This document shows, piece after piece, positions 16,417 through 41,819 of a DNA stretch of 52,274 nt. The DNA is taken from contig LFWW01000004.1 of assembly GCA_001273385.1 (NCBI GenBank), forward strand, positions 1-52,274. The letters run 5' to 3'. The translations under genes and the position numbers were made by a program. The first letter of the stretch is position 1. The number at the start of each line of letters is the position of its first letter. Below the pieces are notes generated by a model. The model was not told where the DNA came from and made no database searches. It was given only the letters and a program-made list of their open reading frames with translations. Source of the stretch: a miscellaneous Crenarchaeota group-6 archaeon AD8-1. Lineage in GTDB: Archaea; Thermoproteota; Bathyarchaeia; Bathyarchaeales; Bathycorpusculaceae.

Positions 16417-17667
16417 TTATTTTTTTATGGTTTTTTCATATAATTCCATTGTTTTTTCAGCGATTTTTGACCACGTAAATTCTTTTAAAACTCTCTTTCT
16501 TCCATTTTTTCCAAGCCATTTTCTCCTTTCGGGATTTTCCAAAACACTAATTACTCCCCAGGCAATATCTGACGGGTTATTTGGATCTACATGATATCCA
16601 CATTGTTCTTCACTGCAACATACGACTATTTCTCGCATTCCACTCACACCCGCTGCTCCTACAACTAAAGGTTTTTCCATACTCATAGCTTCAAGTGCAA
16701 CTATTCCAAATGGCTCATAATGACTTGGAAAAACGGCTACATCACAAGCTGCATAATGATTAATTCTTTCTTCTTCGGGAATAAAATTGAAACAAAATTT
16801 TACATACTTATCCAATCTCATGGTTCTTGTTAAATTCATCAGATATTCCTGCAAATCGCCAACTCCAACTATTACCAGTTTAGCTTGAGGGATTTTTGAT
16901 AAAATATGTGGCATTGCCATTATCAGTTTATCCACTCCTTTTACTCCTACCAATCTTCCTAAAAAGAGGATCATCAAATCGTCATCCTTAATCCCATAAT
17001 TCTCTCTTACTATCTTGATTTGATCCGGCGAGACATTTTCAGGATTATATTTTTCAGGATCAACCCCATTATACCTGACATGTATTTTCTCGCGTGGAAA
17101 TCCTAATTGGATTAATTCGTCTTTCATAGCATAAGACACAGTCACAATAATGTCAGCCATCTTTGCACCACGCATTTCAATATTGCTTACTACTGCAGAA
17201 CCATTTCCCAAGGTACGACCTTTTTCAGTTGAATGGATATGAAAAGCTAAAGGTAATTTACTCTCTTTCTTTACTGTTATTCCTCCCATAATTGAGAGCC
17301 AATCATGTGCAACTACGATATCATATTGTATATTTTCTTTTTTAATTAGGTCATTGATAAGTTTTGAAGCTGTTAAATAATTATATACAAGCAGTTTACC
17401 AAATAAGTTGATGCCTCTTCCCCATTTTCTGATATCTTCAGCAATCACATCAGGGAGCGAATCTGAAACATCAATGTGTAAAGGTCGATGAATTTCAATA
17501 CCCCTCCAAATCTCTCTGGTGGGCAAAGATCCCTCGTCATCATTCATTGTAAAAACTGTAACGTCATCATCCATCAAAACAAATTTTCGAGTTATTTCAG
17601 CTGCGTAGGTTCCTAAACCTCCTACGATTTTGGGTGGGTATTCATAAACGAGAACAGCTACCTTCAT
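16417..17667 (-). CDS. glycogen synthase-like GT4 glycosyltransferase
   Basis: A GT-B glycosyltransferase beginning MKVAVLVYEYPPKIVGGLGT, the loop common to archaeal glycogen/starch synthase-like GT4 enzymes. FLGRLVGVKGVDKLI (about 233-247) starts the donor domain. HYEPFGIVALEAMSMEKPLVV holds the E-x7-E motif that binds the nucleotide sugar. I start at the ATG at 17667, preceded by GGTG at 7 bases. An ATG at 17679 is in frame but adds only MVYY. It diverges from a wHTH-DUF5752 gene across 130 bases, a pairing that suggests a storage-sugar or compatible-solute function. Confidence 0.85.
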   Translation of the reverse strand: MKVAVLVYEYPPKIVGGLGTYAAEITRKFVLMDDDVTVFTMNDDEGSLPTREIWRGIEIHRPLHIDVSDSLPDVIAEDIRKWGRGINLFGKLLVYNYLTASKLINDLIKKENIQYDIVVAHDWLSIMGGITVKKESKLPLAFHIHSTEKGRTLGNGSAVVSNIEMRGAKMADIIVTVSYAMKDELIQLGFPREKIHVRYNGVDPEKYNPENVSPDQIKIVRENYGIKDDDLMILFLGRLVGVKGVDKLIMAMPHILSKIPQAKLVIVGVGDLQEYLMNLTRTMRLDKYVKFCFNFIPEEERINHYAACDVAVFPSHYEPFGIVALEAMSMEKPLVVGAAGVSGMREIVVCCSEEQCGYHVDPNNPSDIAWGVISVLENPERRKWLGKNGRKRVLKEFTWSKIAEKTMELYEKTIKK

Positions 17668-17765
17668 ATAGTACACCATTTCTGGATTAGCAATATTAAT
17701 ATTCTATACTAAAACTTTGCTAATTCCAATTCAATAATAATTTGAGAAACTTTGATTAGCTTGTA

Positions 17766-37918: not shown

Positions 37919-38140
37919 CTATTTCTCAATTAAATAACATTCTTGAACCATTAAAAATTTTATTATAGCGGATAAATATAATATTTATTGTAAATGATTA
38001 AAAACCGCAATATTTTTTTAAACGCTGGTTTGAGCACTAAAAAAAAGTTTTCACAACTATTGTTTTTCTCTTAATAATGCTTATTAGATAGAATCAATTC
38101 AATAAAAACTTAAATCTTACGATGCAAGAATGTGAATAAA

Positions 38141-39970
38141 ATGTGCGGTATTTTCGGTTGTATTTTAAAAAAAGGTTCTGCCTCTTCATTGATTCACGCT
38201 TCACTAAAAAGGCTTGAATATCGAGGATATGACTCTGTCGGAATTGCAACACTTTATAACAATCAGCTTCAAATTAAGAAAGGTCAAGGAAAAATTGATG
38301 AAGTACACCAAAGACTAAATCTTGATGATTTAAAAGGAACTATCGGGATTGGTCACACAAGATGGGCCACACATGGAGCTCCCCTAGAAATTAATTCCCA
38401 TCCACACATAGATTGCACAAACAAAATTGCAGTTGTTCATAATGGTATAATCGAAAATTTTTCTGAATTAAAATCTGAACTTGAAAATAATGGTCATAAT
38501 TTTATTTCTAAAACTGACACAGAAATAATCGCCCATCTGATAGAGGATAACATATCAAAAAATCCAAAAAAAGGTTTAGCAGATGCAGTTCTTGAAGCAG
38601 TGAAAAGATTGGAGGGTTCTTATGCCATTGCGGTTATTTCGACAATAGAACCAGATAAAATAATATGTGCAAGAAATGAAAGCCCTTTAGTCTTAGGTTA
38701 TAACGAAAAAGGTTACTATATTGCATCCGATATACCAGCATTTTTGCCAATAACAAATAAAGCTTTAGTAATAAAAAACGGAGAATTAATTAATATATCT
38801 GCTAGTGGCTATGAAATTAAAAAAATTGTTGATTCTACTCTCGTTTCAAGAGAACCAAAGATTATTGATTGGACCCCTGAAATGGCTTTAAAAAAGGGAT
38901 ATCCTCATTTCATGATTAAGGAAATTAATGAACAACCATTAACATTACGTAACACACTAAGACTACAAGATCATTATCTAGATTTAATCTCCACATTTCT
39001 TGATAGAGCTAAAGATGTTTTTTTGGTAGCCTGTGGCACATCTTATCATGCTTGTTTAGCAGCATCTTATATGTTTTCTAAACTTGCATTCTTGCCAACT
39101 TATCCAGTTTATGCTTCAGAATTTATAGAACAACATGGCAAATCTGTTAATATTGATAGTACTATTTTAGCTGTTAGTCAATCAGGTGAAACAGCTGATA
39201 CCTTATCTTCAGTAACTTGCGCACAACAAAGAGCAGCAACAATATTAGGATTAACAAACGTGATAGGTTCCACATTAACTCGTGTTTCTCGAGTATATGT
39301 TGGTCAACAGTCTGGGCCTGAGATTGGTGTAGCGGCGACTAAAACTTTTACTTCTGAACTCTCTGTTTTAGCTCAATTAGCTCTTAGATTATCTAAAAAA
39401 AGAGGAAAAGTCTCTCAAGATGAGATGGATCATTTATCTGAAAAACTAGAAACAATACCTAAAAATGTAGAAACAATAATTTCAACACAGGCCAATAAAA
39501 TAAAGAAAATAGCAAAGAAATACAAAAAAGCAAAAATTTTCTTCTTCTTAGGAAGAGGAATTAGTGCAGCAACAGCTTATGAGGGACGGCTTAAACTCAT
39601 GGAAATAGCTTATGTTCCATCCATGGCTTTTCCAGCCGGAGAAAGTAAACATGGTCCAATTAGTTTGATTGAATCCGGAATTCCAGTAGTTTTTATTTGT
39701 CCAAAAGACGGTTCACATAAGACGCTAATTAGCAATATCATGGAAATGAAAGCAAGAGGTGCTTCAATAATTTCTGTAATAGAAACAGGAGATGAAATCA
39801 TAAAAAAGTTATCTGATGATTATATCGAAGTTCCTGCCGGAATACCCGAGATACTTTCTCCAATACCTTTTGTTGTACCATTACAGCTTTTAGCATATTA
39901 TGTAGCTTTAGAAAAGGGACTAAATCCGGATACTCCCAGAAACCTCGCAAAATGTGTTACTGTGAAATGA
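38141..39970 (+). CDS. glmS: glucosamine-6-phosphate synthase (glutamine-hydrolysing)
   Basis: A 609-residue enzyme that makes glucosamine 6-phosphate from fructose 6-phosphate and glutamine, feeding UDP-GlcNAc for surface glycans. I start at the ATG at 38141 so that Cys2 (MCGIFG) is the catalytic nucleophile. A GTG at 38132 would bury it. RLEYRGYDSVG, HTRWATHGAP and NGIIENF mark the glutaminase domain. Two SIS domains follow (ACGTSYHA, SQSGETADT, and SKHGPISLIE). The C-terminal end LAKCVTVK is standard. Confidence 0.96.
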   Translation: MCGIFGCILKKGSASSLIHASLKRLEYRGYDSVGIATLYNNQLQIKKGQGKIDEVHQRLNLDDLKGTIGIGHTRWATHGAPLEINSHPHIDCTNKIAVVHNGIIENFSELKSELENNGHNFISKTDTEIIAHLIEDNISKNPKKGLADAVLEAVKRLEGSYAIAVISTIEPDKIICARNESPLVLGYNEKGYYIASDIPAFLPITNKALVIKNGELINISASGYEIKKIVDSTLVSREPKIIDWTPEMALKKGYPHFMIKEINEQPLTLRNTLRLQDHYLDLISTFLDRAKDVFLVACGTSYHACLAASYMFSKLAFLPTYPVYASEFIEQHGKSVNIDSTILAVSQSGETADTLSSVTCAQQRAATILGLTNVIGSTLTRVSRVYVGQQSGPEIGVAATKTFTSELSVLAQLALRLSKKRGKVSQDEMDHLSEKLETIPKNVETIISTQANKIKKIAKKYKKAKIFFFLGRGISAATAYEGRLKLMEIAYVPSMAFPAGESKHGPISLIESGIPVVFICPKDGSHKTLISNIMEMKARGASIISVIETGDEIIKKLSDDYIEVPAGIPEILSPIPFVVPLQLLAYYVALEKGLNPDTPRNLAKCVTVK

Positions 39971-40044: not shown

Positions 40045-40747
40045 TTGGAACAAGATAAATGGACTGAACTGATTAATCAATTAATTAGACAAGGTGTACT
40101 GCATTCAAAAAAAGTAAAGACAGCAATGCTAGCTGTACCTCGTACAAATTTCTTGCCAGAAGATATGAAATCCTATTATGCATCAGATACTCCTCTTCCT
40201 ATTGGACATGGTCAAACATGTTCTGCGCCACATAGTTTCAGTTTATTTCTGGGCTAGGCGATACATGGTTTCAATTATGAATGAAGCCTTAGAATTAGAA
40301 ATTGGCCATAAAGTATTGGAAGTTGGATCTGGATCAGGTTGGCATTCAGCTACAATAGCCGAAATAGTTGCTCCTAGTTCCACACCTAGAAGTGAATGGG
40401 GGTGTATCTTTACTTTGGAGATAATAAAGCCTCTTGCAGAAAATTCTAGGAAAAATATAATTAATTCTGGTTATGCAGATCGTGTAAAAATCATAAATGC
40501 AGATGGTTCTCTGGGATATTCTGAGGAGTCTCCATATGACCGGATTATTGTTACAGCGGCAGCCAGAGAGGTACCTCCACCTCTTATAGATCAATTAAAA
40601 ACTAATGGAATCATGTTAATTCCCATCGGCAGTGCATCTCTTTTTCAAAATTTAATAAAAATAAAAAAAAGCCTTGATGGAAAGATAAAAAAAGAAAATT
40701 TGGGTGGAGTAGCTTTTGTTCCCTTAACTGGAAAATTAGGACAATGA
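40045..40747 (+). CDS. pcm: protein-L-isoaspartate O-methyltransferase, interrupted by a 31-base BHB intron
   Basis: Repairs isoaspartyl residues using SAM. Exon 1 (40045-40231, UUG start) encodes MEQDKWTELINQLIRQG through IGHGQTCSAP. Exon 2 (40263-40747) encodes the MVSIMNEAL helix and the SAM motif VLEVGSGSGWHSA. Unspliced, a TAG at 40255-40257 ends translation. Removing 40232-40262 joins codons into SAPHMVSIM, matching the family's SAPHM motif, and yields 223 residues, a normal length. Without splicing the gene would be a pseudogene. A one-base error cannot explain a 31-base insert. Confidence 0.9.
40232..40262 (+). other. pre-mRNA bulge-helix-bulge intron in pcm
   Basis: The RNA can fold into a 3-4-3 BHB. 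Central helix CGCC (40226-40229) pairs with GGCG (40257-40260). The 5' bulge is ACA (40230-40232), cut AC^A. The 3' bulge is ATA (40261-40263), cut AT^A. The inner helix TAG/CTA extends by TTCAG/CTGGG (with G-U pairs and one bulged base) around a 7-base loop. The outer helix is weak (TG/CA). Cuts at the usual bulge positions restore the reading frame and the SAPHM motif exactly. Confidence 0.85.
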
Positions 40748-40784: not shown

Positions 40785-41819
40785 TTATTTGAACCATTTT
40801 TCAAGAGTCATTTTCTCTCTGGATTCCTTTGTTCCTTTTTGTAGCTTATTTAGAGCTTTTCGAACTCTGGATTCTGAAAAATCTTTTTCCAAGCAGAGAA
40901 AATCAACAATATCTTCAAAGTCAACATCTTTCCATTCTAATAGGTAGTCATCAGTTATTTCTGGATTTAAAAAAAGCTCTTGGATTTTTTTATATTCAAA
41001 TTGAATTTGGTTATTTTTTAGATGAGGCAAAACTCTTTCAAAACTACCATATTCCTTAATGAGTTTTAGGGCAGTTTTAGCTCCTAAACCTTTTACTCCA
41101 TTGGGATTATAATCCGTCCCAATTAAGATACTCAAATCAATTAATTGTTCAAAAGTTATTTTATTTTCTTCGAGTGTCTTTTTTAATTCTACCAATTCAG
41201 GATTTATGTTAATATAAATATTTTTTCGGGCGACCTTTCTTTTTCCTGAAATTGTCATATTTCTAACTAATTTAGATGCTCCAAATAGCAAGCTGTCATA
41301 ATCTTGACTAGAACAATACTCTGCATCTCCTTTTTTTACTAGATAAGCCGCTTGAGCTTCACCTTCACTTGGCGCTTGAATCCAAGGAAGCCCCATTAGA
41401 GATAATAGTTTCTTGCTATCAGAAATCATGTAATCCTTGAGGCGTGATGTTGCTTGAGCATATTTGCGCGCCTCCTCCATTTTCCCCTCTTCTAGAGCTT
41501 TTTCATATTTTGCTAAGGCTTCATCTTTTATTTTTGTTCGTCTTTCAATTTCTGTTTTTTTTAGTATTGGAGGATTTCCATCAAAAATAAAAATAGGTTT
41601 GATACCCAATTCTATCAGATTACTTGTTCTGTATAATAAGCCAGCCAAGTGGCTTGTCACTTTTCCAGAGTTATTCTTTAGTGGTGTACCATTAGGTTGA
41701 CGAATAATAGAAAGAAATTGATATAGAGCATTATATGCGTCAACAGCGATAATTTTTCCGCTTAAATTTTCTAGTTTAATTGAGGTTTTAGGAACTATTT
41801 GTTGAAGCTTTACTCCCAA
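40785..41819 (-). CDS. fen: flap endonuclease FEN1
   Basis: A 344-residue nuclease that removes 5' flaps in replication and repair. MGVKLQQIVP, IAVDAYNALYQFL (about 24-36, catalytic Asp), IFIFDGNPP (about 76-84), APSEGEAQAAYL (about 149-160), SSQDYDSLLFG and GTDYNPNGVKGLGAKTALKLI (H3TH region) hold the metal-binding carboxylates. The C-terminus MTLEKWFK is a PCNA-binding (PIP) end. ATG start. Convergent with pcm across 37 bases. Confidence 0.96.
   Translation of the reverse strand: MGVKLQQIVPKTSIKLENLSGKIIAVDAYNALYQFLSIIRQPNGTPLKNNSGKVTSHLAGLLYRTSNLIELGIKPIFIFDGNPPILKKTEIERRTKIKDEALAKYEKALEEGKMEEARKYAQATSRLKDYMISDSKKLLSLMGLPWIQAPSEGEAQAAYLVKKGDAEYCSSQDYDSLLFGASKLVRNMTISGKRKVARKNIYININPELVELKKTLEENKITFEQLIDLSILIGTDYNPNGVKGLGAKTALKLIKEYGSFERVLPHLKNNQIQFEYKKIQELFLNPEITDDYLLEWKDVDFEDIVDFLCLEKDFSESRVRKALNKLQKGTKESREKMTLEKWFK

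Follow-up and report, generated by a model that had tools for sequence, protein, structure and literature searches.

The pcm gene of AD8-1, which encodes protein-L-isoaspartate O-methyltransferase, is broken by 31 bases that include a stop codon, as noted in a preliminary description of this locus and evident from both the list of open reading frames and the sequence itself. The locus raises the question of whether the 31 bases disable the gene or are removed from its message as an intron. The window (the whole stretch of 52,274 nucleotides that was analysed) belongs to an assembly of 1.58 Mb in 83 contigs that is 93% complete, and the G+C content of the genome, determined over the stretches retrieved, is 32.5%. 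The closest named relatives of AD8-1 pcm are those of Candidatus Bathyarchaeota.

The interrupted gene and its predicted RNA structure

Without splicing, pcm yields two fragments only, with the first frame stopping at 40257 and the rest lying in another frame (Table 1). Deletion of the 31 bases in silico, with each bulge cut behind its second base as initially proposed, gave an unbroken Pcm of 223 residues that reads SAPHMVSIM, with the peptide TCSAPHMVSIMNEALELEIGHK across the exon junction. The spliced protein matched the NCBIfam model TIGR00080 over its whole length with 201 bits (cut-off 159), and the two unspliced pieces reached 52 and 135 bits, each under the cut-off. It also cleared the cut-off of NF001453 and could be aligned over its entire length with solved PIMTs, among them 1jg1, in which SAPHMVAIM stands opposite SAPHMVSIM at the junction.

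The bulge-helix-bulge (BHB) anatomy was retrieved as described with respect to the central helix CGCC/GGCG, the bulges ACA and ATA and the inner pairs TAG/CTA; the inner helix had been drawn too short and extends over three more U.G pairs. These three pairs place it among the weaker inner helices of the family. A 91-nt pcm RNA around the insert folded with -27 kcal/mol (z = -3.0), and both the central and the inner helix were present in the minimum-free-energy structure. The weak outer helix, which had been named as the main caveat, was found as well: it comprises only two contiguous pairs in AD8-1, and its weakness is common to the whole family of pcm introns. Outer AAAC/GTTT pairings farther from the site were seen by eye only. 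Rfam contained no relevant match at the pcm site.

We are highly confident that the 31 bases are an archaeal pre-mRNA intron that is cut by a two-subunit endonuclease and joined by RtcB; the cutting, the joining and the role of the enzymes are inferred. According to this model, pairing between CGCC of exon 1 and the intronic GGCG would leave both strands with a bulge of 3 nt. The two-subunit tRNA-splicing endonuclease would then cut past the second base of each bulge, and RtcB would join the exons, thereby completing the CAC codon of SAPH and giving rise to the full-length protein-repair methyltransferase.

Table 1. Features of the pcm locus in the window, and the cbf5 intron of the same genome.
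Feature	Position	Strand	Remarks
glmS-like aminotransferase	38132-39970		One side of pcm; named by inspection
pcm	40045-40747	(+)	Neighbours: glmS-like aminotransferase, FEN1-like nuclease
pcm exon 1	40045..40231	(+)	TTG start; encodes residues 1-62 and ends with C, the first base of the His codon; from ORF list, PF01135 match 4-65, TIGR00080 match to 65
Central 4-bp helix, 5' strand CGCC	40226..40229	(+)	Within Ala-Pro codons of exon 1
5' bulge ACA	40230..40232	(+)	Predicted cut between 40231 and 40232
Putative 31-nt BHB intron ATAGTTTCAGTTTATTTCTGGGCTAGGCGAT	40232..40262	(+)	In-frame TAG at 40255-40257; ends predicted from the cut rule (after base 2 of each bulge)
Inner helix, 5' strand TAGTTT	40233..40238	(+)	Last three pairs U.G
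Inner helix, 3' strand GGGCTA	40251..40256	(+)	From folding and covariation
Central helix, 3' strand GGCG	40257..40260	(+)	Within the intron
3' bulge ATA	40261..40263	(+)	Predicted cut between 40262 and 40263
pcm exon 2	40263..40747	(+)	Begins with AC of the His codon; MVSIM... follows up to the stop
FEN1-like nuclease	40785-41819	Opposite pcm	Named by inspection
cbf5 intron of AD8-1	2805-2826 of reverse complement (L238, G000:C30)	(-)	BHB

Inserts at the same site in related genomes

Among 60 relatives, pcm was broken at the same place in most; when the site was extracted, the majority had an insert of 28-46 nt and the others had none at all. An independent scan of named genomes returned the same pattern with inserts of 21 to 48 nt, and later additions ranged down to 20 nt; inserts of 20-48 nt are thus located at the identical His codon in dozens of independent assemblies. 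With a covariance model, intron-length matches were obtained in 112 of the 257 genomes of the class, distributed over 11 families (counted from the match table), and 38-nt intron-free matches in 29 further genomes of the class. Six genomes in the phylum but outside the class (L281-L286, other classes) also carry a pcm intron, at the same codon; all six were read and splice correctly. The comparison of related genes suggested in the preliminary description was favourable: in some, the insert occupies the identical site and its helices covary, while others lack it exactly, agree precisely with the spliced sequence and read straight through SAPHM. The insert in AD8-1 is confirmed as real, as are the same-site inserts in relatives; assembly error was considered as an explanation and rejected. 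While the intron reading is supported, its original framing around a single genome understated the finding, which concerns an ancient intron family and no one-genome oddity.

Several side observations were made in this survey. The shortest pcm introns (20-26 nt; L121, L125, L290-L293 and L295) occur in and near family f10, and several of them form a compact inner hairpin with some five pairs. A bathyarchaeal-type pcm with the intron is also present in two contigs that bear the labels Wukongarchaeum (L076) and Njordarchaeum (L126); in the tree, these copies are nested among Bathyarchaeia. They are probably mis-binned or transferred and were excluded as evidence for Asgard archaea. One assembly (G013) contains two differing intron-bearing pcm copies (L048, L053), possibly reflecting a strain mixture.

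A disabling insert that has left pcm dead in AD8-1 would account for the stop and the frameshift that break the frame. However, the same-site inserts in the 112 genomes, the covariation of their structure (see below) and the purifying selection on pcm (dN/dS 0.09-0.16) all speak against a pseudogene. Additional disabling mutations in relatives, put forward at the outset as a refuting observation, were absent from every spliced copy, and we consider this explanation practically ruled out.

Although the inserts differ in sequence, their structure was conserved through compensatory changes throughout 66 distinct sequences, with the central helix forming 4/4 pairs in 65 of them and 3/4 in one. A compensatory CACC/GGTG helix was found in three of the 66 and also in four out-of-class sequences. 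The bulges follow the patterns NCN and NNA, with 3 nt on each strand at a constant distance, and each of the six inner pairs is standard in 60 to 66 of the 66 sequences, beyond all 2000 shuffles. When 50 sequences were aligned, 98.2% of the pair cells were formed (84.7% after shuffling) and 82 cells had both sides changed, compared to a shuffled mean of 23; such both-side changes were seen at all six inner pairs. In a slid control, in which the partners were moved by 1-3 columns, pairing fell to 19-39%. RNAalifold returned the same two helices without any structure supplied. The strict hBHBh' form requires more than 2 bp in the outer exon-exon helix, but only 1-2 contiguous bp were present in 64/66 sequences; in the family, this helix amounts to one G-C pair plus little more. 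Because of this short outer helix, the predicted pcm intron is of the relaxed HBh' form (definition quoted in PMC3978253), not of the strict form.

The cut rule was further assessed by its effect on the codons. In silico, cutting after base 2 of each bulge gave SAPH followed by M, without a stop, in every copy examined, with the His codon being CAC in 66/66. Removal of the insert as a simple gap produced Leu (CTC, CTT), Arg (CGC) or Gln (CAG) in many copies, yet the His of SAPH is invariant among intron-free relatives, which makes the rule a strong test. The motif Ala codon is GCG in 63 of the 66 intron-bearing genes but in only 9 of 19 intron-free ones (Fisher p = 6e-6), and the remaining three intron-bearing genes have GCA, compensated. 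Given this difference, the exon base of the Ala codon seems to be held by pairing rather than by coding.

These data also bear on a split protein, in which two separately translated Pcm chains would associate, the second starting from the ATG just past the insert. This ATG follows the His codon in all copies, and exon 2 by itself is a long open frame. On the other hand, the Met shows the same conservation in relatives without the intron and in the nearest solved PIMTs, the break lies inside the conserved SAPHM motif, and two chains would leave unexplained the 3-nt bulges, the 4-bp helix over the exon border and the constraint on the GCG codon. We therefore see only a very slim chance for this arrangement.

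Intron lengths span all three frame classes. Among 81 distinct introns, 21 are divisible by three, and every one of these contains an in-frame stop; therefore, none of those unspliced messages would yield a full-length Pcm with the insert. The probability of 21/21 stops with random codons is about 2e-9, a naive estimate, as the sequences are related and not independent. In addition to being spliced, the intron might thus act as an on/off switch for Pcm, with the unspliced form being regulatory, a proposal that would extend the intron reading rather than replace it. Apart from the stops, the persistence of the intron in many lineages despite frequent exact loss is in line with such a role. Conversely, the shared helix sequence (TAG, GGCTGA) accounts for part of the stop excess, the frequent loss argues for dispensability, and there are no expression data, so that regulation by the intron is regarded as unlikely.

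Splicing machinery, cbf5 and the genome-wide scan

Two EndA genes were detected in AD8-1 and in 12 of the 13 genomes searched (presence only). One of the AD8-1 proteins is closest to the crenarchaeal-type catalytic chains 2cv8, 3p1z and 2zyz and retains Tyr-His-Lys, which we take to be the catalytic residues of EndA; the other aligns with 1a79 and lacks the catalytic His. AD8-1 is thus predicted to encode a two-subunit splicing endonuclease composed of a catalytic alpha and a structural beta subunit, its activity being inferred from sequence. The weak outer helix of the pcm intron fits the relaxed HBh' form tolerated by endonucleases of this kind. A gene for the RtcB ligase is present (presence only), and seven of the 32 tRNAs found in AD8-1 contain introns.

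The cbf5 gene of AD8-1 carries a 22-nt strict BHB intron (GGGA-CTCT-AGA-GGC...GCC-AGAG-AAA-TCCC) that splits the catalytic Asp codon of GTLDP, the known crenarchaeal site. Because of this intron, AD8-1 is predicted to hold at least one pre-mRNA intron of an already known type at a known site. Many Bathyarchaeia relatives (including L166 and L168) likewise have a BHB intron of 21-22 nt in cbf5, which interrupts the codon of the catalytic Asp and has a strong outer helix. In a 2009 survey, the cbf5 intron was reported for Desulfurococcales and Sulfolobales only (PMC2738675).

The stable hairpin downstream of the break could also be skipped by the ribosome through translational bypassing or frameshifting, and archaeal cbf5 was once read as a case of frameshifting by some authors (PMC2738675). 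Next to no weight is given to this mechanism for pcm: the inserts fall into all three frame classes, no matching take-off and landing codons giving His-Met were recognized by inspection, and the hallmarks are those of EndA substrates, with cbf5 of the same genome having the same anatomy.

To search for further introns, about 1.45 Mb of AD8-1, small overlaps included, were scanned, which gave 42 BHB-like joins of two coding frames, with pcm ranking 10th by helix strength. The motif evidence for pcm from a single genome is therefore not decisive. By contrast, the combination of same site, covariation and restored His codon in 81 distinct sequences is, with near certainty, far above chance. Inspection of the short candidates among the 42 left cbf5 and pcm as the only convincing ones, and several others proved to be ordinary gene boundaries. 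A candidate in a histidine kinase gene (L241, minus strand, near 17667-17710) shows a frame shift just before the HDVSNK box and is likely an assembly error or a true frameshift, not an intron. An earlier scan filtered by codon score returned 67 hits that appeared to be AT-rich chance matches and missed both pcm and cbf5. Taken together, all predictions of the preliminary description that can be tested on sequences were met, and the intron is supported at this level; the RNA-level step is unproved.

History of the inferred pcm intron and relation to known systems

In a tree of 116 proteins, 12 state changes were required, at least eight of which were forced by well-supported branches; in a tree of 131 proteins, a single gain would require 12 losses. 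Most simply, there would have been one early gain followed by about 12 exact losses. Support for the deep branches of the pcm tree is poor, so that the numbers of gains and losses are uncertain; a second gain remains possible, L286 being placed with 38% support. Replacement of an intron by a copy of spliced RNA was proposed for cbf5 (PMC2738675), and the exact, frame-keeping losses in pcm would, by inference, match the expectation of such a process.

A literature search, which did not cover subscription papers and preprints, revealed no report of a pcm intron, in agreement with the first reading of the locus, whose author knew of none. A 2020 paper on Haloferax names crenarchaeal cbf5 as the sole archaeal coding gene with a reported BHB intron (PMC7714728); for other genes, predicted introns are mentioned in the 2009 survey (PMC2738675). 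pcm is thus apparently the second archaeal coding gene with a conserved BHB intron. It contributes a second, widely distributed case with a clear record of numerous exact losses, together with a covariance model that can be used in searches. In more than 100 genomes of Bathyarchaeia, a large and mostly uncultured archaeal group, gene callers probably annotate pcm as a broken or split gene, and often cbf5 too. Transcript reads have been mapped to Bathyarchaeia genomes in work on the processing of rRNA (PMC12918454). The origin of short archaeal introns, their preference for conserved-motif codons, their loss via spliced RNA and their role in regulation become accessible to tests. Only tentatively, pre-mRNA splicing by the tRNA endonuclease may be a long-standing component of gene expression in Thermoproteota that involves multiple genes. 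Introns would lie in codons of the conserved active-site motifs of cbf5 and pcm, would in every case block the unspliced message, might gate enzyme production and would at times be erased via spliced-RNA copies.

The cbf5 pre-mRNA intron was reportedly described by Watanabe in 2002. In Sulfolobales and Desulfurococcales, it is a BHB intron of 16-44 nt (Yokobori 2009, PMC2738675). The pcm intron resembles it in being a short BHB intron (20-48 nt) in a coding gene that interrupts the codon for a highly conserved residue, and in its early gain and several losses alongside a two-subunit EndA. It differs in the gene, the lineage (Bathyarchaeia and a few other Thermoproteota), the codon (His of SAPH) and the relaxed motif without a real outer helix; moreover, RNA splicing has been demonstrated for some crenarchaeal cbf5 genes, whereas it is inferred for pcm. 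Descent from the cbf5 intron family is not indicated, as the gene and site differ and AD8-1 cbf5 has its own intron. The BHB site in the Haloferax HVO_1309 mRNA (PMC7714728) is likewise an EndA substrate in an mRNA, but it is located in the 5' UTR and interrupts no reading frame. Relaxed HBh' introns of archaeal tRNAs share with the pcm intron the 4-bp central helix, the 3-nt bulge, the inner helix and the weak outer helix, as well as the cut after the second bulge base and the alpha2beta2 EndA (PMC3978253); unlike these, the pcm intron resides in an mRNA, with no tRNA fold to help place the cuts.
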